From Salinicola acroporae (GTDB lineage Bacteria > Pseudomonadota > Gammaproteobacteria > Pseudomonadales > Halomonadaceae): a stretch of 64,000 nt of DNA. The position numbers were made by a program, and so were the translations under genes. The stretch covers positions 62,001 to 126,000 of the forward strand of contig NZ_PZJW01000001.1 in assembly GCF_003206615.1 (NCBI RefSeq). Reading direction: 5' to 3'. Positions 36,371 through 62,319 of this stretch are shown piece by piece (within the stretch, counting starts at the first letter, position 1; every line of letters starts with the position of its first letter). The notes under the pieces are model-generated. The model was given only the letters and a program-made list of their open reading frames with translations. It did no database searches and was not told the origin of the DNA.

Positions 36371-36973
36371 TCAGCGGGAGAGGGCATCCCGCTGGATCGC
36401 TTCCAGCTCGAAGATCAGCGTCACATGATCACCGACCATACCGTTGTCGACGCCATAATCCATCCCCCAGTCACTACGATCGAGAGCGCCCCGAACCGAC
36501 AATCCCAGCGTGGGCCGCCTGTGCCCGAACGGATAGACCGCATCCCGGTTCAACGTGACGTCCAGCGTGACCGGCTCGGTGCGCCCCAGCAGCGCGAGCT
36601 TGCCATTCAGCGTACCGGTCGTCGGGGAGGAGGGCTCGAAATCCGTGGCTACGAAATGTATCCGCGGGTGATGGTCCGCATCCAGAAAGTCGTGCCCCCG
36701 CAGATGCTCGTCACGAGCGTCGAGATTGGTGAAGACGCTGGCGGCCTGGATCGTGACCTCCGCCGAGACCAACCGCTGCGCCTCGCGATCGTAGACGAAG
36801 GTGCCCTCGCCCTTCAGGAACTGCCCAAGCAGGTTCTCGTAACCCAGATGATCCACCATGAACGCGATGGAGAAATGTTCGGGATCGATATCGAAGCGCT
36901 GCGGCTCGGCGCTTGCCGGCGACGACGCGAGCAGCGCCAGTGCGGGGAGAAGATTCAACCAAGCGCGTCTCAT
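36371..36973 (-). CDS. YceI-family periplasmic lipid-binding protein
   Basis: A 200-residue secreted protein. The ATG at 36971-36973 follows AAGGAG. The signal peptide MRRAWLNLLPALALLASSPA ends near ASA before EPQRFDIDPEHFSIAFMVDH, the classic YceI opening. The body reads as an eight-stranded lipocalin-like barrel (FLDADHHPRIHFVATDF, LALLGRTEPVTLDVTLN). YceI proteins bind isoprenoid lipids and are often induced by base or osmotic change. It is located just downstream of the CDP-alcohol phosphotransferase gene on the same strand (56 bases apart), so the two may be cotranscribed. Confidence 0.92.
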   Translation of the reverse strand: MRRAWLNLLPALALLASSPASAEPQRFDIDPEHFSIAFMVDHLGYENLLGQFLKGEGTFVYDREAQRLVSAEVTIQAASVFTNLDARDEHLRGHDFLDADHHPRIHFVATDFEPSSPTTGTLNGKLALLGRTEPVTLDVTLNRDAVYPFGHRRPTLGLSVRGALDRSDWGMDYGVDNGMVGDHVTLIFELEAIQRDALSR

Positions 36974-37028
36974 GACGAACTCCTTGCGGGGAAATCGACC
37001 CAAAAATCGCGCGAGACGGCGACGCCGC

Positions 37029-37790
37029 TCACAGCTCGATGTCTCCGGCAGGACGACGACGCCAGAGCCAGACGATGTCGCGGCCGAACGAAAGGACCAG
37101 CAATAGTGCCGCGACCAGCGTAAAAGCGGTCGCCCATGACGGTTCGACGAAGGGAAGCAGGCAGACCATCAGCGTCGACACCTGCCAGACGCAGACCGTC
37201 TTGCGAAAATAGCTCTCTGGCAGGGTGCGATTGAGCCACGGCGTGTAGAACCCAGCGATCAGGAACGCATAGCGGGCCAGTCCGATGACCAGAATCCAGG
37301 CCCCCACCTTGTCCAGGGCGATCAATGCCACGCACAGCACGACGATGAAAAACGCATCCAGCTCCATGTCGAATCGCGCGCCGAAGGCGCTCGACGACCC
37401 AGTCCGTCGCGCCACCCAACCATCGATGCCGTCGAGGGCCAATGCCAGCAACGACAACGCTGCGATACCTTCGGCGTGGCGCTGGATGAAATCCGGATAG
37501 ACCACGACGCCGGCGACGACCGCGATCAGCACCGCTCGGAGCAGGGTGACACGGTTCGCCCAGCCGAGCCCCTGCCGCGAGGCTGGCCAGGCCCAGAGCA
37601 CTGCCGTGGCGATCGCCAGGTAGATGCCGCCGGCCGTGAGACGCAGGCCCGATGGTGCCGAGAATGCCCAGTGCACCCACTCGGTGAGCAGGCCGACCAG
37701 TGCGAGCCCCGCGCCCATCTCGACCCAGCCGCGCAGGGATCTTCCCCGCCGGGAAGCCGCTGCCGAGATACGTGTCGATGAGTGTCGCAT
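37029..37790 (-). CDS. CDP-alcohol phosphatidyltransferase-family membrane enzyme
   Basis: A 253-residue inner-membrane protein, started at the ATG 37788-37790 after GGGAGG. The catalytic pattern D-x2-D-G-x2-A-R-x8-G-x3-D-x3-D is complete: Asp120, Asp123, Gly137, Asp141 and Asp145 in LDGIDGWVARRTGSSSAFGA and the residues after it. Six hydrophobic segments surround it. The family moves a phospho-head group from CDP-alcohol to another alcohol. It is distinct from PgsA at 30440 and longer. It is divergent from the dehydrogenase/PTPS/glycosyltransferase run, sharing the 353-base control region at 37791-38143. That layout suggests it serves the same pathway, perhaps by attaching a lipid. Confidence 0.88.
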   Translation of the reverse strand: MRHSSTRISAAASRRGRSLRGWVEMGAGLALVGLLTEWVHWAFSAPSGLRLTAGGIYLAIATAVLWAWPASRQGLGWANRVTLLRAVLIAVVAGVVVYPDFIQRHAEGIAALSLLALALDGIDGWVARRTGSSSAFGARFDMELDAFFIVVLCVALIALDKVGAWILVIGLARYAFLIAGFYTPWLNRTLPESYFRKTVCVWQVSTLMVCLLPFVEPSWATAFTLVAALLLVLSFGRDIVWLWRRRPAGDIEL

Positions 37791-38143
37791 CGGCGACCTC
37801 CTCCCTGATGATGGCTCGCGCCCCGACCTGTCGTGACGCCAGAGCGCGATGCCCTTCTCCAATCGATACGCTACCGGTACAAGTTTGGATGCAATTCGAC
37901 CGATTTGCGAGAATGGCGGGTCATCGTGGCGATCGACGGGGCCAGCAACGCCGAGAGATGGCCGACTTCCAGGCCATGCACTTCGCCTCGGCGGCCCTTC
38001 GACGCCGCCATCGAAGCGAAGAAATCTTATTCATCATTTTATTCTTGTACACCATTTGTACAATTCCAATTCGCCATACTCTGCCATACTCTCAGCAGGA
38101 CGATGAACCGCCACCCGATCTGCCCCAAGGAACGGATACCGCA
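37791..38143. other. Divergent control region of the GTP-derived pathway
   Basis: 353 bases between the CDP-alcohol phosphotransferase and the dehydrogenase gene. It is AT-richer near 38020-38090. It holds the palindrome at 38045-38063, tandem GCCATACTCT copies at 38073-38082 and 38083-38092, and an isolated TACCGGTACAAG near 37870. Small open frames here are not supported. Confidence 0.55.
38045..38063. promoter_or_regulatory. Perfect palindromic operator candidate
   Basis: TTGTACA-CCATT-TGTACAA has seven-base arms with a five-base spacer. It is the only strong palindrome in the divergent region. Paired TGTACA half sites are used by MerR-family regulators, including the B12-dependent photoreceptors LitR/CarH, but with different spacing. 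The likely regulator is not encoded next to it. Confidence 0.6.
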
Positions 38144-39115
38144 ATGACGACGCCTTACGCTCACGCCTTCTGGTCTCTCGGCAACGGCAACGGCGAAATT
38201 CGCCAGGCCGAGCTGAGTGTCAGCGGTGACTTGATGATCCGCACCTGCTACTCCGCCATCAGCCGGGGCAGCGAGACGCTGGTCTTCAATGGCCAGGTAC
38301 CGGCGAGTGAATACCAGCGGATGCGGGCGCCCTTTCAAAGCGGCGAGTTCCCCGGCCCGGTCAAGTACGGCTACTCCAATGTCGGCGTCGTCGAGCAGGG
38401 AGCGCATGACTGGCACGGGCGCTATGTCTATTGCCTTCACCCTCACCAGACCCACTACCGGGTCGGCGTCGACGACGTCGTGCCGCTGCCACCCGGCGTG
38501 CCCCCGCAGCGCGCGATACTCGGCGCCAACATGGAAACGGCGCTCAACGCCCTGTGGGACGCGGCGCCGGGAATCGGCGACCGAATCAGCGTCGTCGGCG
38601 CTGGCGTCGTCGGCGCCCTGGTGGCCTGGCTCTGCGCCCGATTGCCCGGGACGCGCGTCCAGTTGATCGATATCGACGAGCGCAAGCGCTTCCTCGGCGA
38701 AGCACTGGGGGTGGACTTCCACACCCCCGAAACCGCCGAGGCCGAACAGGATCTGGTCGTGCACGCCAGCGCATCGGACGCCGGCCTGCAAAGTGCCCTC
38801 TCACTGGCGGGGTTCGAGGCCACCGTGCTGGAAATGAGCTGGTACGGCAGCCGCGAGGTCAACCTGCCACTCGGCGAGGCATTTCACGCCCGCCGCTTGA
38901 CGCTGCGCTCCAGTCAGGTCGGCAGCGTATCGCCCGGACACCGCCCTCGCTGGAATCACCAGCGGCGACTGGCGCTGGCACTGGCGCTGCTCGATCACGA
39001 CTGTCTGGACGTGCTGATCAGTGGAGAGAGCCATTTCCGGGATCTGCCCGAAACGCTCAAGCGACTGAGCCAGCGTGACGACGATACGCTCTGCCAGCGC
39101 ATCCGCTACGGCTGA
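38144..39115 (+). CDS. MDR-family dehydrogenase without catalytic zinc ligands
   Basis: A 323-residue medium-chain dehydrogenase/reductase. The N-terminal domain reads [16 protein letters not shown] instead of the Cys...Gly-His-Glu zinc site of alcohol dehydrogenases, so the catalytic zinc is absent. The NAD(P)-binding motif [12 protein letters not shown] is near residues 151-162, and [12 protein letters not shown] starts are shared with BchC-like reductases. AAGGA precedes the ATG at 38144. It is the first gene of a run with the PTPS-like, glycosyltransferase, methyltransferase and flippase-like genes. A redox step on a sugar or side chain of the pathway product is the likely role, by inference. 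Confidence 0.82.
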
Positions 39116-39237
39116 CGCGACGTACCTCATGGTGCCAGCCCGGTCATCGCACGCTTCGCCAGGCCGGTTCGCCAGGGACAGCAAGACGCAAATTCGGCAA
39201 CGGCCCCATACGGCCGACTCAGCAAGGAGCGAGAGGA

Positions 39238-39636
39238 ATGTTCAGCTTGACCGTTCGCGATCACATGATGATCGCTCACAGCTTCAACAGCGAGACCTTC
39301 GGCCCGGCGCAGAAGCTTCACGGCGCGACGTACGTGGTCGACGCCACCTTCAAGCGCCCCGAGCTCGACCAGGACGATCTCGTCGTCGATATCGGTTTGG
39401 CCAGCGAGACGCTGAAGCGCGTGCTCGGTGAATTCACCTTGGGCAACCTCGACGAGATCGGCGAATTCAAGGGCCGCAACACCACCACCGAATTCATGGC
39501 CAAGGTCGTCTTCGACCGACTCTCCCACGCCATCCGCGAGGGCGAGCTGGGTGACGGCGGCCGCCATCTCACCGCCCTGACCGTGACCCTGCACGAGTCC
39601 CACGTGGCCTGGGCGAGCTACGAAGGGGGGTTATGA
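39238..39636 (+). CDS. PTPS/QueD-like protein with altered active site
   Basis: A 132-residue T-fold protein of the 6-pyruvoyltetrahydropterin synthase/QueD family. It keeps His14 (MIAHSF), His28 (LHG) and the substrate-anchoring Glu120 (LHES). Three key positions differ from E. coli QueD. The second His of the LHGH zinc motif is Ala30. The catalytic Cys four residues before that His is Ala24. The DH pair of the catalytic relay is Asp72-Glu73. It therefore should not do the standard 7,8-dihydroneopterin-triphosphate reaction in the standard way. It overlaps the glycosyltransferase gene (ATGA). It may act on the pyrimidine made by GTP cyclohydrolase II downstream. Confidence 0.82.
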
Positions 39637-40697
39637 GCGACTTCACGCTGATCGTCGCCGGCGACCCCGGCCAGTTGACCGGCGGCTACGTCTACGATGC
39701 GCGCATCGCCGAGGCGCTGCGCGCCACCGGCTGGAACGTCGACGTCGTCGGGCTCGAGGGACGCTTTCCCGAACCGGATGCCGTCGCCGCCCACGCCCTG
39801 GACAGCGCCTTGACCGCACTGGCGGACGGCAGCCGGGCCGTGATCGACGGGCTTGCCATGGGCGGGCTACCGGCCATCGTCGAGCGTCACGCGTCGCGGC
39901 TGTCGATCACCGCGCTGGTGCACCACCCTCTCGCCGACGAAACCGGCCTGGGCGCCCCGGAGCAGCAGCGCTTCCGCATCAGCGAGACCCGCGCCTTGGC
40001 CGCGGCCGGGAGCGTCATCGTCACCAGCGTCTTCACCGCCCGGCGGCTTCGCGACTTCCAGGTGCCGGCCGAGAAGATCGCGGTCATCGAGCCTGGCGTC
40101 GAGCCCGGCCCCCTGGCGAGCGGCGATGGCAGCGGCACGCCTCGCCTGCTGTGTATCGCCACGGTGACGCCGCGCAAGGGCCAGGATCTGCTGGTCGAAG
40201 CGCTGGCGGGCCTGACCTCGCTGCCGTGGCAGTGCGATCTGATCGGCGCGCTGGACCGAGCCGACACCTACGTCGCCAAGGTGCGCAAGGCCATCGACGA
40301 ACACGGGTTGGGCGAACGTATCCGGTTACTGGGCTCGCAGCCCGCCGAGCGCCTGTCCGAGCATTACCGGCAAGCCGATCTCTTCGTGCTGCCCTCGCAC
40401 TACGAAGGCTACGGCATGGTAGTCACCGAAGCGCTCGCCCATGGCTTGCCGGTCGTCACCACGACGGGCGGCGCCCTGGCCCATACGCTGCCCGACGGCG
40501 CCGGTATCAAGGTGGCACCGGGAGACGTGGTGGCGCTGCGTCATGCGCTCGAACGCATGCTGCAAGACACGGAGACCTACCAGCGCTACCGGGAAGGGGC
40601 CAGCGCGTGTCGCGATACCCTGACCGACTGGCACGCCGCCGCCGCCGCCTTCGGTCAGGCCCTGAAGCGCTCGGACACGAGAGAGGCAATGCGCTGA
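39633..40697 (+). CDS. GT4-family glycosyltransferase
   Basis: A 354-residue GT-B enzyme. The N-terminal domain begins [20 protein letters not shown] with the glycine-rich acceptor loop. The C-terminal nucleotide-sugar domain has [18 protein letters not shown] near residue 172 and the EX7E motif in [19 protein letters not shown] near 255-270. It transfers a sugar from a nucleotide donor. The gene overlaps the PTPS-like stop by four bases and its own stop overlaps the methyltransferase start (TGATG). The tight coupling means the glycosylation step belongs to the same pathway. Confidence 0.9.
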
Positions 40698-41623
40698 TGC
40701 CGACCTCGACGCCCCCCGCCACCGACGCGCTGTTCAGCGATCAATGGCTGACGCTGAGGGAGCCCGCCGATCACAGGGCAAGAGATGCCCAGCTCACCCA
40801 CGCCGCAGATCAATGGCTGATGCGCCGCGCCGCAACGAACCAGCCGGGGGACCCGCGGTCGTTCAGGACACGACGCACCCTGGTTGACCTGGGTTGCGGC
40901 AGCGGCTCCAACCTGCGCTACCTCGCACCCCGCCTGCAGGGCGCCCAGCGGTGGCGGCTGATCGATCACGACGCCGGGCTGCTGGCTCAGGCCCGACAGC
41001 GCTGCGAGTCGCTGGCGAGTGCCGACGACCAACCGATCCATCTCGAGACCAACCAAATGAGCCTGACGGTGGCCTGGCAGCACCACCTGGAAGGCGCCGA
41101 TCTGGTCACCGCCTCGGCGCTATTCGACCTGCTGACGGCCGATGCCATCGAGGCATTGGCCGATGCCTGCCAGCGTAGCGGCTGCGCGGTACTGTTCGCG
41201 CTCAGTATCGATGGCCTGATCCGTTTCCACGACGCCAGCGGCAGTGCGCTTGAAGACGATGACGATCGCTTCATGCTCGCCGCGCTCCAGGCCCATCAAC
41301 ATCGCGACAAGGGGGGTGGCCCGGCGGTGGGCGGCGAAGCCCCCCGCAGACTTCGCGAGAGCTTCCACCGTCGCGGCTACCATATCCGTGAAGCCGCCAC
41401 CCCCTGGCGACTCGGGCCGGAGTCGCAGCCTCTCACCGAAGCGCTAATGGCCGGCTGGCGCAAGGCGCTTCACGAGCAACTGCCGCAGCAGCGGGATCGT
41501 GTCGACCAGTGGCATGGCCACCATCTCGACGGCCTGCGGCGTGGCCAAGTGACGTTGACCGTGGGTCATCGGGACCTGCTGGCGACCCCGTCCGACGCAA
41601 CGCCCCCAGGAGCGCGAGCGTGA
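40697..41623 (+). CDS. Class I SAM-dependent methyltransferase
   Basis: A 308-residue methyltransferase. Motif I is LVDLGCGSGSNLRYLAP at residues 62-78, followed by an acidic post-I residue in WRLIDHDAGLL. ADLVTASALFDLLTADAIEA is the motif IV region. The C-terminal half is unusual for its length and may bind the acceptor. The ATG overlaps the glycosyltransferase stop, and the TGA overlaps the GTG of the flippase-like gene. It likely methylates the pathway product; acceptor unknown. Confidence 0.87.
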   Translation: MPTSTPPATDALFSDQWLTLREPADHRARDAQLTHAADQWLMRRAATNQPGDPRSFRTRRTLVDLGCGSGSNLRYLAPRLQGAQRWRLIDHDAGLLAQARQRCESLASADDQPIHLETNQMSLTVAWQHHLEGADLVTASALFDLLTADAIEALADACQRSGCAVLFALSIDGLIRFHDASGSALEDDDDRFMLAALQAHQHRDKGGGPAVGGEAPRRLRESFHRRGYHIREAATPWRLGPESQPLTEALMAGWRKALHEQLPQQRDRVDQWHGHHLDGLRRGQVTLTVGHRDLLATPSDATPPGARA

Positions 41624-42609
41624 ATCGGTGGTTGTCGCCGTGGCTACGGCTGGCCGTGACGCTGGCACTGCTGGGCGTACTGGCGTGGAGACTGGATACC
41701 GGCCAGTTGCTGGAGAGGCTCATGGCGCTATCGCCGGCCTGGGTTGCGCTCGCGGTCCTGCTTGGCCTCCCCCAGATCGCGATTTCGGCCTGGCGCTGGA
41801 GAATGACCGCGCATCGGGTCGGCATCGCGCTACGGTGGCCCACGGCCATCCGCGAGTACTACCTGGCCACCTTCCTGAATCAGGTCCTGCCGGGCGGCGT
41901 CCTGGGGGACGCGGCTCGGGCCTGGCGCCACGGCAATACCCCGACAAACGCCAGTGGCGACCAGCCATCGCCCTCGGGACCAGCGCTACGCGCCGTGATC
42001 ATCGAGCGCGCCTCCGGCCAGGTGGCGCTGCTGCTGGTGGCGGTCACCGCCGTCTCGCTCTCGCCGGCGCTACGCCACGGCATCGTTCAGGCATGGCAAA
42101 CCTGGGCGACGACCCTGGCATGGCTGCTGCTGGCGGCACTGCTACTGGTCGGCATCATCGTCGGCGTCTCGAGGCGGCGACGCGGGCGGGCCCTGGCAAC
42201 CTTCGGCCGGGACATCAGGCGGGCGTTGCTGACGGCGTCGGTATGGCCCGCCCAGCTGGTCAGCTCGCTGCTGGTCATCGCCACCTACGTCGCCGTCTTT
42301 CTCTGCGCCGCCCAGGCCCTCGGCCTTCAGCGGCCGCTCTGGCAGTTGCTGCCGCTGATCCCGCCCCTACTGATGGCCATGGCGATCCCCTTGACCGTCG
42401 CGGGTTGGGGGCTACGGGAAGGCGCCGCCGCGGTGATCTGGCCCCTGGCTGGCCTCCCGGCCCAAGAGGGCGTCGCGCTGTCCGTGGCCTACGGCCTGCT
42501 CGTACTCGCCGCCAGCCTGCCGGGATTGGGAGTGCTGTTGTGGGACCGTCGGGGGAACCGGGCAGTCTCGCTTCGCCGCAAGCTGGTATCGGAGGGCAAT
42601 CCCGGATGA
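41620..42609 (+). CDS. Flippase-like integral membrane protein (UPF0104/LPG-synthase TM family)
   Basis: A 329-residue protein with about eight membrane segments. The GTG start at 41620 is preceded by AGGAG and overlaps the methyltransferase stop (GTGA). The family phrase YYLATFLNQVLPGGVLGDAARAW (about residues 80-102) and ERASGQVALLLVAV are the conserved core of the flippase-like domain also found in MprF. It may move a lipid-linked product across the inner membrane or act as a membrane transferase. It is the last plus-strand gene before the convergent RibD-like gene. Confidence 0.85.
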   Translation: MNRWLSPWLRLAVTLALLGVLAWRLDTGQLLERLMALSPAWVALAVLLGLPQIAISAWRWRMTAHRVGIALRWPTAIREYYLATFLNQVLPGGVLGDAARAWRHGNTPTNASGDQPSPSGPALRAVIIERASGQVALLLVAVTAVSLSPALRHGIVQAWQTWATTLAWLLLAALLLVGIIVGVSRRRRGRALATFGRDIRRALLTASVWPAQLVSSLLVIATYVAVFLCAAQALGLQRPLWQLLPLIPPLLMAMAIPLTVAGWGLREGAAAVIWPLAGLPAQEGVALSVAYGLLVLAASLPGLGVLLWDRRGNRAVSLRRKLVSEGNPG

Positions 42610-42611
42610 GA

Positions 42612-43538
42612 TCAGGACACCGCTGGCGTTCGGTCACGCAGGTCGAGATCGAACAACATATCCCGGCCAAGGCAGAAATGGCGACAGGCTGGCCGCAGCG
42701 CCATGTCCAGCGTCTTGATCTCCGGCAGCGTCAGCGCCGGACGGCCGGACCCGATCAGCATGGGCGCGACGACACTGTGCAATCGGTCGAGACAGTCCGC
42801 CTCGAGAAAGCGGGAAATCGTCAGCCCGCCGCCTTCGATCAGGATCCGACGATGACCCTGCTCGGCCAGCAACGCCAGAACCCTCGAGGGATCGAAGCCC
42901 GCCGCCTCCGGCGGCAACGGCGTGACGCTGACATGCGTCGCGAGCCCGTGGCCCCCGACGCCCTCGTTGACGAGATGCCAGGTCGGCGCCGCCGGCTGGC
43001 AGAAGACGTGGCGATCGGCCGGTACCCGCCCCCGGGGGTCGAGCACCACCCGCAGCGGGTTGTCGCCCTCGACATGGCGCACGGTCAACTGCGGGTCGTC
43101 GGCGTCGACCGTACCAGCACCGACGACGACCGCGTCGACCAGCGCCCGCATTCGATGCAGATGGACCAGGCTCTGCTTTCCGGTCACGTAGTGGGAAGCA
43201 CCGGTGACCGTCGCGATACGGCCATCCAGGCTCTGGCCCAACTGGGCGATGACGCACGGCCCCCGGCGCACCGAGGTCGTGCACCACGGCAACCAGATCG
43301 ACAACAGTTGCGCAGCCTCCTCGTCGACCGGATGGCTGCAGCGCCAGCCGCCGCCGGCGTCGACTTCCAGGCGACGATGCCCATCGACGACGGTCCCGTC
43401 GAACGAGTCGTCACGGGTCAGGGCCGCCACTTGGCGAAGCCAGCGCCAGGCCAGGGCGACGGGCACGGTGGGAGTCACGGCGTGAGTGGGGTTATCGGAC
43501 GAGGCAGTCACGGTCATTCCTTGGCCAGACGGCATCAC
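42612..43538 (-). CDS. RibD_C-type reductase (dihydrofolate-reductase fold)
   Basis: A 302-308-residue protein. It lacks the RibD deaminase domain but has the reductase half. GQSLDGRIATVTGASHYVTG lies in the middle, then RMRALVDAVVVGAGTVDADDPQLTVR, and IEGGGLTISRFLEADCLD near the C-terminus; all are riboflavin-specific reductase hallmarks. The first 80 residues are extra. In riboflavin synthesis this fold reduces the ribosyl chain of the GTP cyclohydrolase II product. It sits convergent to the flippase-like gene (2-base gap) and divergent from GTP cyclohydrolase II. The start is uncertain: ATG at 43535 or 43517, or GTG at 43511, which has AAGGA six bases before. Confidence 0.85.
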   Translation of the reverse strand: MMPSGQGMTVTASSDNPTHAVTPTVPVALAWRWLRQVAALTRDDSFDGTVVDGHRRLEVDAGGGWRCSHPVDEEAAQLLSIWLPWCTTSVRRGPCVIAQLGQSLDGRIATVTGASHYVTGKQSLVHLHRMRALVDAVVVGAGTVDADDPQLTVRHVEGDNPLRVVLDPRGRVPADRHVFCQPAAPTWHLVNEGVGGHGLATHVSVTPLPPEAAGFDPSRVLALLAEQGHRRILIEGGGLTISRFLEADCLDRLHSVVAPMLIGSGRPALTLPEIKTLDMALRPACRHFCLGRDMLFDLDLRDRTPAVS

Positions 43539-43635
43539 AGCGTAGCAAAGATCGACCTTGGCGCGGAGTGCGTTCGGCGGTGGGCGCCATCATTCCGACT
43601 CCCCTCGCCGGTCCCCCACCCCGGGCCTCGGGTGC

Positions 43636-43661
43636 CGATCACGGATAGCGATCACAGATGA
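43636..43661 (+). repeat. Tandem 13-base direct repeat before the GTP cyclohydrolase II gene
   Basis: CGATCACGGATAG and CGATCACAGATGA follow one another directly with ten of thirteen positions matching. They lie 35 bases before the ribA ATG. They may be an activator or repressor site. Confidence 0.5.
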
Positions 43662-43695
43662 GACTGATCATGGACGACAGGATAAGGAGACGATC

Positions 43696-44835
43696 ATGCG
43701 ACAGGTAGAGCGCGCGATATTCGATCTGCGGCGCGGCCTCCCGGTGCTCGTGCGGGCCGCCAGCGGCGACGTGGTGGTCCACCCGCTCGAGGGCTGCGAC
43801 GACGAGGCACTGACGGCATTGCCGGCGCTCGCCGGCAACTCGGCCGCCCTGGCGCTGACCCGCCATCGCCTGGCGCGGCTGGGCATCGACTTCGGCCCCC
43901 GCGTAGGGCTGGTACCCGTCGACCCCGACGATGGTGCCCAAGCCATCGTCGCCTGGGCCAGCGACGAAACGCGGCGGCTGCCCGTGGATCGCCAGCCCGT
44001 CGCCGCCGCCCCGGCGAGCGAGGCGGCGCTGGATCTGATGCGAATCGGCCTACTGATCCCCGCGGCCGTGGTCGCCGAGGTCAGCCAGGCGCAACGCGCC
44101 CAGGTCGAGGCGCTGGTCGCGGAGGGTACGGTACTGGCGGTCGCCGCCGAGCAGATCGACGCCTACGCCGGGAGCCGGTCGCGTTTCCTCAAACGCACCA
44201 GTGACGCGGAGATCCCGCTGTCCCACGCCGAGCGCGCCACCTTCGTCATGTTCCGGGAGGCCGACGGCATGCGCGAGCACATCGCGATCGTGATCGGCGA
44301 TCGCGCCGAATGGAGCGATGCGGTGCCGGTGCGTCTTCATTCGGCCTGCCTCACCGGTGACCTCTTCGGCAGTTTGCGCTGCGACTGCGGCGAGCAGCTG
44401 CGCGAGAGCGTGCGCACCATCGACGAACGCGGCGGCGGCGTCCTGCTCTATCTCGCCCAGGAGGGTCGGGGCATCGGGCTGGCCAACAAGCTGCGCGCCT
44501 ACACCCTGCAGGATGGCGGCCTGGATACGGTCGACGCCGACCAGGTACTCGGGTTCGGCGAGGACGAGCGAACCTACGAAGTCGCGCTGGAGATGCTCGA
44601 GCAGCTCGAGATCGCGCGGATCGAACTGTTGACCAACAATCCCGAGAAGATCGCCGCCATGGACCAGGGCGGCGTCGAGGTGGTCAACCGTCGCGGCATC
44701 TACGGCAAGCTGACCAAGCAGAACCGACGCTATCTGGATGCCAAGGCCAAGCGCGCCGGCCACTGGCTGGAAGAGGTGCTTGACGACGGCGAGGGTAAAT
44801 CGTCCACGCCTCTCAGGCGCCCGGTGGCGCGCTAA
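43696..44835 (+). CDS. ribA: GTP cyclohydrolase II with N-terminal extension
   Basis: A 379-residue protein. The C-terminal 200 residues are a complete RibA: zinc ligands Cys218, Cys229 and Cys231 in LHSACLTGDLFGSLRCDCG, the catalytic loop LAQEGRGIGLANKLRAY at 253-269, and LLTNNPEKIAAM. It opens GTP to 2,5-diamino-6-ribosylaminopyrimidinone phosphate, formate and pyrophosphate. The N-terminal 175 residues (VERAIFDLRRGLPVLVRAAS) are a RibB-like remnant without the catalytic acidic motif, as in many alphaproteobacterial RibA proteins. AAGGAG precedes the ATG. Its place among PTPS-like, RibD-like and decoration genes, not with ribBDE, suggests a dedicated second copy for a non-riboflavin product. 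Confidence 0.92.
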   Translation: MRQVERAIFDLRRGLPVLVRAASGDVVVHPLEGCDDEALTALPALAGNSAALALTRHRLARLGIDFGPRVGLVPVDPDDGAQAIVAWASDETRRLPVDRQPVAAAPASEAALDLMRIGLLIPAAVVAEVSQAQRAQVEALVAEGTVLAVAAEQIDAYAGSRSRFLKRTSDAEIPLSHAERATFVMFREADGMREHIAIVIGDRAEWSDAVPVRLHSACLTGDLFGSLRCDCGEQLRESVRTIDERGGGVLLYLAQEGRGIGLANKLRAYTLQDGGLDTVDADQVLGFGEDERTYEVALEMLEQLEIARIELLTNNPEKIAAMDQGGVEVVNRRGIYGKLTKQNRRYLDAKAKRAGHWLEEVLDDGEGKSSTPLRRPVAR

Positions 44836-44838
44836 GCG

Positions 44839-45648
44839 TCATCCCGACGCCGGATGGCGGTGGCGCAAGGTAGCGAGATCGAATGTCCCCGCCTCCTCGA
44901 TCACCTGCGCCAGCCGGATGCCGAAATGGTCGACCAGCCGACGGCCGGTCTCGGCGTCGGCCAGGGTCGCGTTGCCGGTCACCCCGCTGGCGTGAAGATC
45001 CTGCGCCAGCCAAGCGTAGCCAGCGTCCCCCTCGGGCCCCAGGGTCGATCCAGCCTGTTCGCGGATCCGACCCTCGGAGACCGCGTCGGCCAGCCGGGCG
45101 ACACGAACCCTGTCCGGAGCGAGATGCAGCATCATCGACGTCTCCAGCGCACCACCATGCAAACCATGGCGGAGCTCCTCGGCGGGAAGCGCCTGCGCCG
45201 GGGGCGCGAAGCGGAAGTAGTTGGCCTTGACCACCAGCATGGCGTGCCTTGCGCGCAGCTTGAGCGCGGCAAGGTCGATGACTGCCTTGTTGCCGCCGTG
45301 GCTGTTGAACAGCACCAGCCGGCGGATGCCGGCGCGCTGAACCGCCTCGCCCAGCGCCTCGATCACCGCGATCGCCGTCTCCGGCAGTAGGCTCAACGTG
45401 CCGGAGAATCCGGCGTGTTCGAGGCTCGAACCCAGCGCCAGCGGCGGCAGCAGGATCACGTTCCGATCCGGCGCGAGCCTTGTCGTTGCCGCCTCGAGCA
45501 GGCCCAGCCCGATGTCCAGGTCGGTGGAGAGCGGCAGATGCGCACCGTGCTGCTCGATCGCCGCCAGCGGCAGCACCGCCACCGTCCCCGCGTCGACCAG
45601 TTCGGCCATCTCCGTCGTGGTCAGCTCCTGCCATTTGTGGACACTCAT
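44839..45648 (-). CDS. Creatininase-family amidohydrolase
   Basis: A 269-residue metal-dependent hydrolase. The metal motif AAIEQHGAHLPLSTDLDIG has Glu32, His34 and Asp43; LFNSHGGNKAVIDL and HGGALETSMML supply the rest of the site. The family includes creatininase, MftE, and the archaeal FAPy deformylase ArfB, which acts right after a GTP cyclohydrolase in making flavin precursors. That precedent makes a role next to RibA attractive. Against it, the ATG overlaps the recD stop (ATGA), so it is cotranscribed with recCBD, and it is only convergent with ribA (three-base gap). Confidence 0.87.
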   Translation of the reverse strand: MSVHKWQELTTTEMAELVDAGTVAVLPLAAIEQHGAHLPLSTDLDIGLGLLEAATTRLAPDRNVILLPPLALGSSLEHAGFSGTLSLLPETAIAVIEALGEAVQRAGIRRLVLFNSHGGNKAVIDLAALKLRARHAMLVVKANYFRFAPPAQALPAEELRHGLHGGALETSMMLHLAPDRVRVARLADAVSEGRIREQAGSTLGPEGDAGYAWLAQDLHASGVTGNATLADAETGRRLVDHFGIRLAQVIEEAGTFDLATLRHRHPASG

Positions 45649-61815: not shown

Positions 61816-62319
61816 TCACCCCTTCAGGGCCGTCAGCGCTGCATCGTAGTCGGGTTCGTTCTTGATCTCGCTGACCAGTTCGGCGTGCACGACCGTGTCC
61901 TGCTCGTCCAGCACGATCACCGCGCGGGCGCACAGTCCGGCCATGGAACCGCTCTGCAGCGCGACACCGTAGTTTTCGCGGAACTCGGGATGACGGAAAC
62001 TGGAAAGCGTGACGACGCGATCCAGCCCCTCGGCGCCACAGAATCGGCTCTGCGCGAACGGCAGGTCCGCCGACACCACCAGTACCACGGTGTTGTCGAG
62101 CCCGCTGGCGTACTCGTTGAACTTGCGCGTGGACATCGCGCAGGTCTTGGTATCGACGCTGGGAATGATATTGAGCACCTTGCATCGGCCGGAGAAGTCC
62201 GCCAGCGACACCTCCTCGAGCTCGGCATTGGTCAGGGTAAAGTCGGGGGCGCTGTCGCCGACGGTGGGGAAATCACCGCCAACCTCGACGGCCACGCCGC
62301 CTCGCGTCACGCTCTGCAT
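61816..62319 (-). CDS. tpx: Thiol peroxidase (atypical 2-Cys peroxiredoxin)
   Basis: A 167-residue Tpx. The peroxidatic Cys60 is in [16 protein letters not shown] and the resolving Cys94 in [12 protein letters not shown]. It reduces peroxides using thioredoxin. The start [18 protein letters not shown] is of family type, and AGAGA lies before the ATG. It lies between the DUF1415 gene and osmC on the minus strand. Confidence 0.95.

Follow-up and report, generated by a model that had tools for sequence, protein, structure and literature searches.

The DNA considered here is a stretch of 64,000 nucleotides from Salinicola acroporae (positions 62,001 to 126,000 of contig NZ_PZJW01000001.1, assembly GCF_003206615.1), called the window in the following. 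It lies on contig C1 of a host genome of 4.37 Mb that is 99.99% complete. An earlier note, made from the letters alone, had described nine adjacent genes at positions 37029-45648 and proposed that they make an undescribed, GTP-derived pyrimidine or pterin that is glycosylated, methylated and possibly lipid-linked. All nine genes are confirmed to lie there and to belong to the families that were named (Table 1).

Table 1. Genes of the cluster in the window, with the matches that characterise them.
Feature	Position in window	Strand	Evidence and remarks
YceI-domain protein, accessory	36371..37003	-	PF04264 9.1e-38; 25 bases downstream of the CDP-alcohol transferase gene, same strand
CDP-alcohol phosphotransferase, membrane protein, start codon uncertain	37029..37862	-	PF01066 3.5e-17
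MDR-type oxidoreductase, BchC-like	38144..39115	+	TIGR01202 4.8e-09, below cut-off
PTPS-IV T-fold protein, SCO6650 orthologue, marker gene	39238..39636	+	PF01242 1.2e-22; 3d7j 1.3e-51; FGPAQ
GT4 glycosyltransferase	39633..40697	+	PF00534 1.2e-31
S-adenosylmethionine-dependent methyltransferase	40697..41623	+	PF13649 1.2e-08
LPG_synthase_TM (flippase-like) membrane protein	41620..42609	+	PF03706 3.7e-37
RibD_C pyrimidine reductase, no deaminase domain, start uncertain	42612..43538	-	PF01872 4.1e-39
GTP cyclohydrolase II paralogue (RibA), decayed RibB-fold N-terminal half	43696..44835	+	PF00925 1.5e-56
Creatininase-family hydrolase, proposed formamidase	44839..45648	-	PF02633 2.1e-64

The gene overlaps that had been noticed are present as ATGA (39633-39636), TGATG (40695-40699) and GTGA (41620-41623). 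The description as a plus-strand run, however, holds for six of the genes only, the CDP-alcohol transferase, RibD_C and creatininase genes being on the minus strand. The YceI gene lies just beyond the coordinates of the nine. At the other end, the creatininase gene overlaps the stop codon of recD by 4 bases (window 45645-45648), and it may thus be co-read with recB-recD in the host genome.

As marker for the cluster we have used the PTPS-like protein. In the part of a 2017 neighbourhood study that deals with the PTPS-IV subfamily (561 sequences, COG0720), this subfamily is linked to PF00925 and PF01872 and has FGPAQ as its signature (PMC5445326). The window protein is a member: it carries FGPAQ, it does not have the motif CxxxHGH, and both neighbours are present. 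Among 203 aligned rows the signature residues are kept as F in 200, G in 202, P in 203, A in 201 and Q in 194, while at the CxxxHGH sites an alanine replaces the motif cysteine in 201 and the second histidine in 199. Of the earlier label "PTPS/QueD-like", the PTPS fold can therefore be retained and QueD (PTPS-I, queuosine) cannot, since TIGR03367 gives 37.1 bits against a cut-off of 89.25 and CxxxHGH is missing. The protein is 100% identical to one of Salinicola lusitanus CR50, and its sole PDB match by sequence is its orthologue SCO6650 of Streptomyces coelicolor (3d7j). In the structure paper for 3d7j, PTPS activity was reportedly not seen, and the pocket is said to suit a pterin-like ligand. 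The host genome also holds, at C29:185173-185916, one open frame of 463 amino acids with two tandem PTPS-fold matches, which is distinct from the cluster gene.

Carriers of the marker were counted in even draws of species genomes, using a protein query for the gammaproteobacteria, where the host genome is included, and a profile query for the actinomycetes and alphaproteobacteria, where each draw is centred on one known carrier. The marker was found in 57 of 394 actinomycete, 45 of 385 alphaproteobacterial and 17 of 369 gammaproteobacterial genomes, which makes some 5-14% of the genomes drawn from each of these three large classes; genomes of 1.0-1.6 Mb are among the carriers. In a scan of genome contigs, at least 572 relatives of the PTPS-like protein were confirmed. 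We have read 202 loci: the contig scan supplied 80, plasmid records 6 (25 such records had a match) and the even draws the other 116. The first 86 were picked by similarity, and many of them come from Halomonadaceae, Marinobacter and Micromonospora. As to the even draws, their centres (G000, G369 and G374) appear only in the carrier tallies, G392 gave two loci, and G457 was excluded from the loci, its match being at a contig end; L181, which is not a cluster locus, was dropped from all counts.

Using profiles built from relatives of the window proteins, we found the families of the window again around the marker in distant genomes, as the earlier note had asked one to look for. The most constant members besides PTPS-IV are the MDR enzyme (199 of the 202 loci; 114 of the 116 even-draw loci) and GT4 (198; 114), followed by the methyltransferase (183; 100), the CDP-alcohol transferase (154; 77), RibD_C (139; 68), the flippase-like protein (129; 60), RibA (120, or 119 if the ordinary RibBA of L204 is discounted; 67) and the creatininase (82; 43). 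MDR, PTPS-IV and GT4 are consecutive on one strand in 196/202 loci (112/116 in the even draws) and the methyltransferase comes next in 178/202, where "in a row" refers to the profiled families and a gene outside them could intervene. In 25/202 loci, mostly of Marinobacter, Halomonas and Vreelandella, GT4 and the methyltransferase are fused in one open frame.

Six neighbours of the cluster in the window served as controls. Five of them have few matches among the 202 loci (NAT 1, Dus 10, AstE-like 9, RecD 9 and RecB 10), nearly all in close kin, while the sixth, YceI, was found in 43 and is now counted as accessory to the cluster. In the even draws YceI accompanies the marker in 9 of 16 gammaproteobacterial, 12 of 44 alphaproteobacterial and none of 56 actinomycete loci, and the profile search gave no YceI in any of the 87 actinomycete loci among the 202. 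Since the same families recur around the marker in phyla where the other window neighbours do not, the co-occurrence is not due to chance. As a rough estimate, 1-6 RibA matches per genome of 3-10 Mb correspond to about 1/100 per 18 kb, to be compared with the 67/116 seen. The cluster is widely conserved, with the window holding one copy of it, and the pathway behind it is probably old.

The residues expected of active enzymes are also kept. The three zinc cysteines are present in all 119 cluster RibAs, including that of the window, the CDP-alcohol transferase motif (D144, D147, G148, R152, G161, D165, D169) in 152/152 rows, and E32, H34, D43, H117 and E169 of the creatininase, which we take to be the metal ligands, in 82/82 rows. 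RibD_C is, as had been proposed, a stand-alone reductase half, and a deaminase motif was found in 0 of 140 cluster RibD_C frames. Its best solved relative, 6p8c, is named 2,5-diamino-6-ribosylamino-pyrimidinone 5'-phosphate reductase, an enzyme of the non-deaminated substrate, and 2azn is also matched. The nearest solved chains to GT4 are Tll1590 and enzymes of the D-inositol 3-phosphate glycosyltransferase type. A reading of the MDR gene as BchC of bacteriochlorophyll synthesis was rejected, TIGR01202 giving 35.8 bits against a cut-off of 291.25.

On this basis we propose, with a probability of about 0.6, that the cluster turns GTP into a dedicated molecule of the pterin or diaminopyrimidine type that carries a sugar and a methyl group. 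In the first step, the GTP cyclohydrolase II (GCH II) paralogue would open GTP. The formyl group would then be removed either by the cyclohydrolase itself or, where the equivalent of Tyr105 of the Escherichia coli enzyme has been lost, and perhaps also in the window, by the creatininase-family protein acting as a formamidase. In the third step RibD_C may reduce the ribose to a ribityl chain, with the 2-amino group retained, after which the MDR enzyme and the PTPS-fold protein would form or hold a pterin-like core, to be glycosylated by GT4 and methylated by the methyltransferase. In part of the range, the CDP-alcohol phosphotransferase and the flippase-like protein would finally attach the product to the membrane or move it across, in proteobacteria possibly with YceI acting in the periplasm. 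All these reactions, and the order of steps three to six, are what we infer from the direct results, which are the gene content, its conservation, the retention of active-site residues and the separateness from riboflavin synthesis described below. The interpretation given in the earlier note is in this sense partly supported; for the word pterin, the PTPS-fold protein provides a basis, although one that does not have CxxxHGH.

Several sequence features bear on the deformylation step. In the window RibA, Y269 aligns with Tyr105 of E. coli GCH II, and this tyrosine is kept in 78 of the 119 cluster RibAs, the others having Met (27), Leu (6), His (5), Gln (2) or Ile (1). A creatininase gene lies near 40 of the 41 RibAs that do not have the tyrosine. 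Within the actinomycetes, the tyrosine is absent in 39/39 RibAs with a creatininase and kept in 28/29 without one. These actinomycete RibAs without the tyrosine also have Glu, in 40/40 rows, in place of the Asp between two zinc cysteines (D230 in the window). Because SCO6650 is the orthologue of the window PTPS-IV protein and the Streptomyces gene order (PTPS, GT4, methyltransferase, flippase-like, creatininase, RibA) fits the tags SCO6650 to SCO6655, SCO6655 can be taken as the cluster RibA of S. coelicolor. The Streptomyces-type RibA differs from that of the window: Met takes the place of Tyr105, and a RibB-like half is absent. The work of Spoonamore from 2006 is said to have found that SCO6655 gives a formylated product, the change of Tyr to Met at this site reportedly being what leaves the formyl group on. 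In Sinorhizobium, a member of the creatininase family has been proven to deformylate the same intermediate (PMC9478397). Taken together, the pairing with the tyrosine-less RibAs, the reported effect in SCO6655 and the Sinorhizobium enzyme suggest that the cluster creatininase is a formamidase. The creatininase accompanies the cyclohydrolase, in line with the earlier note, RibA being present in 39 of the 43 even-draw loci with a creatininase (4 are without). We considered the link between tyrosine and creatininase as a statistical proof and rejected it in this form, as only two changes on the RibA tree underlie it; it is kept as a clade-level pattern.

Within the same pathway, the creatininase could instead act on a later amide or cyclic intermediate and not directly after RibA. 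We regard this as the strongest of the alternatives, if still an unlikely one. In its favour, with the tyrosine kept in the window RibA, self-deformylation would be expected there, and the window creatininase-family protein scores below the cut-offs of three models: the creatininase model, that of mycofactocin MftE (TIGR03964, 111.8 bits against 172) and that of archaeal ArfB (NF033501, 19.4 bits against 180), so that identity with MftE or ArfB was rejected. What speaks against a later role is the company that the gene keeps, that is, the 39 of 43 loci with RibA and the 40 of 41 tyrosine-less RibAs just mentioned.

We now turn to the membrane genes, which are common but optional. In the even draws, the flippase-like gene occurs in 58 loci with the CDP-alcohol transferase and in 2 without. 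The proposed lipid linkage can apply to part of the range only, 77/116 loci having the transferase. Three alphaproteobacterial genomes of 1.4-1.6 Mb have all seven soluble families together (RibA, creatininase, RibD_C, MDR, PTPS-IV, GT4 and methyltransferase) and no membrane genes in the cluster. Three gammaproteobacterial genomes of 1.0-1.1 Mb keep YceI, CDP-alcohol transferase, MDR, PTPS-IV, GT4, methyltransferase, flippase-like protein and RibD_C, and the profile search gave no RibA in their loci. These six loci are AT-rich (G+C 26-31%), and from the sizes of the genomes we would guess that they belong to streamlined marine lineages. A divergent version on a Haloarcula plasmid has matches to creatininase, CDP-alcohol transferase, MDR, PTPS-like protein, GT4 and methyltransferase; in its PTPS-like protein the identity falls to about 31%, and FGPAQ is absent.

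It could be argued from these genes that the real product is a membrane glycolipid, made by the CDP-alcohol transferase, the flippase-like protein, GT4 and the methyltransferase, with the GTP enzymes supplying a minor head group or a regulator. In favour of this are the pairing of the two membrane genes in 58 of 60 loci and the presence nearby of YceI, of a sulfatase-annotated membrane protein and of a family 2 glycosyltransferase. The latter two came out of a survey of non-overlapping frames in 115 loci. The sulfatase-annotated protein recurs near the cluster in 14 of them, from alpha- and gammaproteobacteria, an acidobacterium and actinomycetes (e.g. L100:6146-7855, L216:4004-5719 and L027:6205-7788); the label comes from one record, PF00884 being below cut-off in one copy and another copy having no Pfam match. 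The family 2 glycosyltransferase is near the cluster in 15 of the 115 (alpha- and gammaproteobacteria, e.g. L217:5397-7142). However, 39/116 even-draw loci have no CDP-alcohol transferase, among them the three small alphaproteobacterial genomes that keep all seven soluble families, which makes a glycolipid as the main product improbable.

Three further observations concern individual loci. In two plasmid loci a cytochrome b561 lies near the cluster. A lone PTPS-IV gene is found on a Streptomyces plasmid (L023:12001-12399), with no cluster partner within 12 kb. In Salinicola tamaricis (L055), the MDR, PTPS-IV and methyltransferase matches are broken over several frames, which looks like frameshifts or assembly errors.

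It is important to establish whether the cluster could be a second riboflavin module, in which RibA, RibD_C and the creatininase feed flavins, as in the BrbF branch of Sinorhizobium, and have nothing to do with the glycosyltransferase and lipid genes beside them. RibA and RibD_C are indeed riboflavin families, and S. meliloti is described, in the portion of the work on this branch, as needing a creatininase-family formamidase for riboflavin (PMC9478397). The host genome, however, has a separate set of rib genes: a stand-alone ribA on C27, riboflavin synthase (ribE) on C29 and, on C30, a consecutive series made up of an nrdR-like gene, a ribD that includes the deaminase, ribBA, ribH and an nusB-like gene (the names nrdR-like, ribH and nusB-like were read from the sequence by us). 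The RibA and RibD_C of the window are thus extra copies and not the only riboflavin genes of the genome, an outcome on which the earlier note had made its proposal depend. We counted PF00925 matches in 15 genomes out of the 80 of the contig scan. A cluster RibA is present in 12 of these (11 inside the loci and one just past the end of L087), and each of the 12 has one or more further matches. Near the 202 loci we found ribH in none, ribB in one (L204) and the RibD deaminase in none, the deaminase query having had no positive control on other genomes, whereas the same ribH and ribB queries match 14/25 and 16/25 non-cluster RibA loci, actinomycete ones included.

The cluster RibA itself points the same way. 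That of the window has about 160 extra N-terminal residues, for which the structure prediction is confident (block means 81-96 for residues 1-160), and RibB structures are among the matches to the model, with 10-21% identity and a TM-score of about 0.5-0.6 by target. The profile search finds this N-terminal half in 51 of 52 non-actinomycete and 0 of 68 actinomycete RibAs, the remaining non-actinomycete one being the ordinary RibBA near the edge of L204. The acidic loop of RibB, present in the host's own RibBA and in 15/25 non-cluster loci, is found in 0 of the 51. With a RibB-fold half without this loop, the N-extended protein looks like a RibBA that has lost its RibB activity. A riboflavin module would moreover leave aside the most constant members, MDR, PTPS-IV and GT4, and we consider this explanation very unlikely; the cluster is not riboflavin synthesis. 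In S. coelicolor, SCO6655 is anticorrelated (r -0.61) with the modelled riboflavin flux, and it is listed among genes mostly raised in stationary phase, according to the tables of the study concerned (PMC2853524).

In a tree of 136 RibA rows, from which nine low-scoring non-cluster rows (decayed or RibBX-like halves) were left out, the 12 clear housekeeping RibAs adjoin in the drawing, and the window RibA groups with other Salinicola cluster RibAs, apart from them, which is the point that the earlier note wished to see checked; among the housekeeping rows, according to a warning of the tree tool, long branches meet. The cluster RibAs fall into a proteobacterial and acidobacterial N-extended group, an actinomycete group with the tyrosine and one without. 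L230, L243 and L248, which are encoded elsewhere in their genomes and not in a cluster, branch among them, and L234, labelled housekeeping, sits 0.4 kb past the edge of the cluster locus L087. The 16 rows first labelled housekeeping need 7 changes on the tree, 3 of them forced by well-supported branches, and the expectation of a single clade of cluster RibAs was therefore dropped.

Coenzyme F420 shares the ribitylaminopyrimidine precursor. That the cluster serves F420, for which a statement in the PTPS-IV passage of a 2016 review, citing unpublished work, can be invoked (PMC5041015), is the least credible of the explanations, as a search for CofD gave a match in 1 of the 17 gammaproteobacterial carriers and none in the host genome. 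With 16 of the 17 carriers lacking CofD an F420 role is unlikely, at least in the gammaproteobacteria, and even the single match need not mean F420, since that Pfam family also matches the E. coli control.

The proposal of a dedicated GTP-derived molecule has to be weighed against a number of findings that do not sit well with it. The genome G255 (locus L177; 1.0 Mb, 96% complete) has no PF00925 match genome-wide and keeps most of the remaining cluster, which leaves at least one carrier without a visible enzyme for the first step. Its kin G142 and G351, the other two of the small gammaproteobacterial genomes described above, each have a single RibA-type match (PF00925), located away from the cluster. 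RibA is not within reach in 49/116 even-draw loci and RibD_C not in 48/116, so either the two are optional or housekeeping copies serve. Most Streptomyces-type clusters are without RibD_C, and the third step may thus be dispensable. The cluster RibAs are not one clade, and the PTPS-IV protein does not have the QueD motif CxxxHGH. As to the formamidase, 35 non-actinomycete RibAs with the tyrosine, that of the window among them, also have a creatininase; in the window, where RibA keeps the tyrosine, a formamidase would have no obvious job. The two changes on the RibA tree amount to 1-2 independent pairs, too few for a test. Finally, SCO2687, another GCH II, is also anticorrelated with riboflavin flux in the same table as SCO6655 (r -0.52; PMC2853524).

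Several known systems can be set beside the proposed pathway. The pterin glycosides of cyanobacteria and Chlorobium start from GTP cyclohydrolase I. Their pathways use a dedicated pteridine glycosyltransferase, which we set beside the cluster GT4 by description only, and these glycosides (cyanopterin, biopterin glucosides) are the nearest known product type (PMC13259868). The archaeal ArfA/ArfB/ArfC route likewise separates GTP opening, deformylation and a RibD_C-type reduction before deamination (PMC13028884), but it uses GTP cyclohydrolase III and leads to ribityllumazine or Fo, whereas the cluster has GCH II. BrbF (SMc02977) of Sinorhizobium and Brucella, which we liken to the cluster creatininase by family and not by sequence, also belongs to the creatininase family and acts after GTP opening; its gene has MarR and CobW genes for neighbours, and riboflavin formation depends on it (PMC9478397). 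The cluster creatininase, in contrast, adjoins a GCH II paralogue and no other riboflavin genes. As for the term "undescribed" in the earlier note, in a full-text literature search that lacked most subscription journals we recognised no paper naming the product of the cluster. The term is too strong in that PTPS-IV with PF00925 and PF01872 was noted in 2017, 3d7j has been solved and the F420 claim has been made (PMC5041015). Section 19 of the 2017 study, which holds its account of PTPS-IV, names no product and no MDR, GT4, methyltransferase, creatininase, CDP-alcohol or flippase partners (PMC5445326).

There is, in our view, a real chance that the product of the cluster is new. More tentatively, and with the odds somewhat against it, the product could be a new cofactor or redox carrier, namely a glycosylated and methylated pterin made via GCH II and not via GTP cyclohydrolase I, having a bacterial formamidase step of its own, often lipid-anchored through the CDP-alcohol transferase and moved across the membrane. 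If the proposed pathway is right, it would fill a gap in the vitamin-like chemistry of actinomycetes, proteobacteria and possibly haloarchaea. Three loose ends would find their place in it: the PTPS-IV proteins, SCO6655 of S. coelicolor, and creatininase-family proteins that have no assigned substrate. Database records annotate PTPS-IV proteins as 6-carboxytetrahydropterin synthase, and genome pipelines that label the cluster genes as riboflavin or queuosine genes would need correction. In SCO6650-SCO6655, a laboratory organism holds a cluster on which the proposal can be tested.

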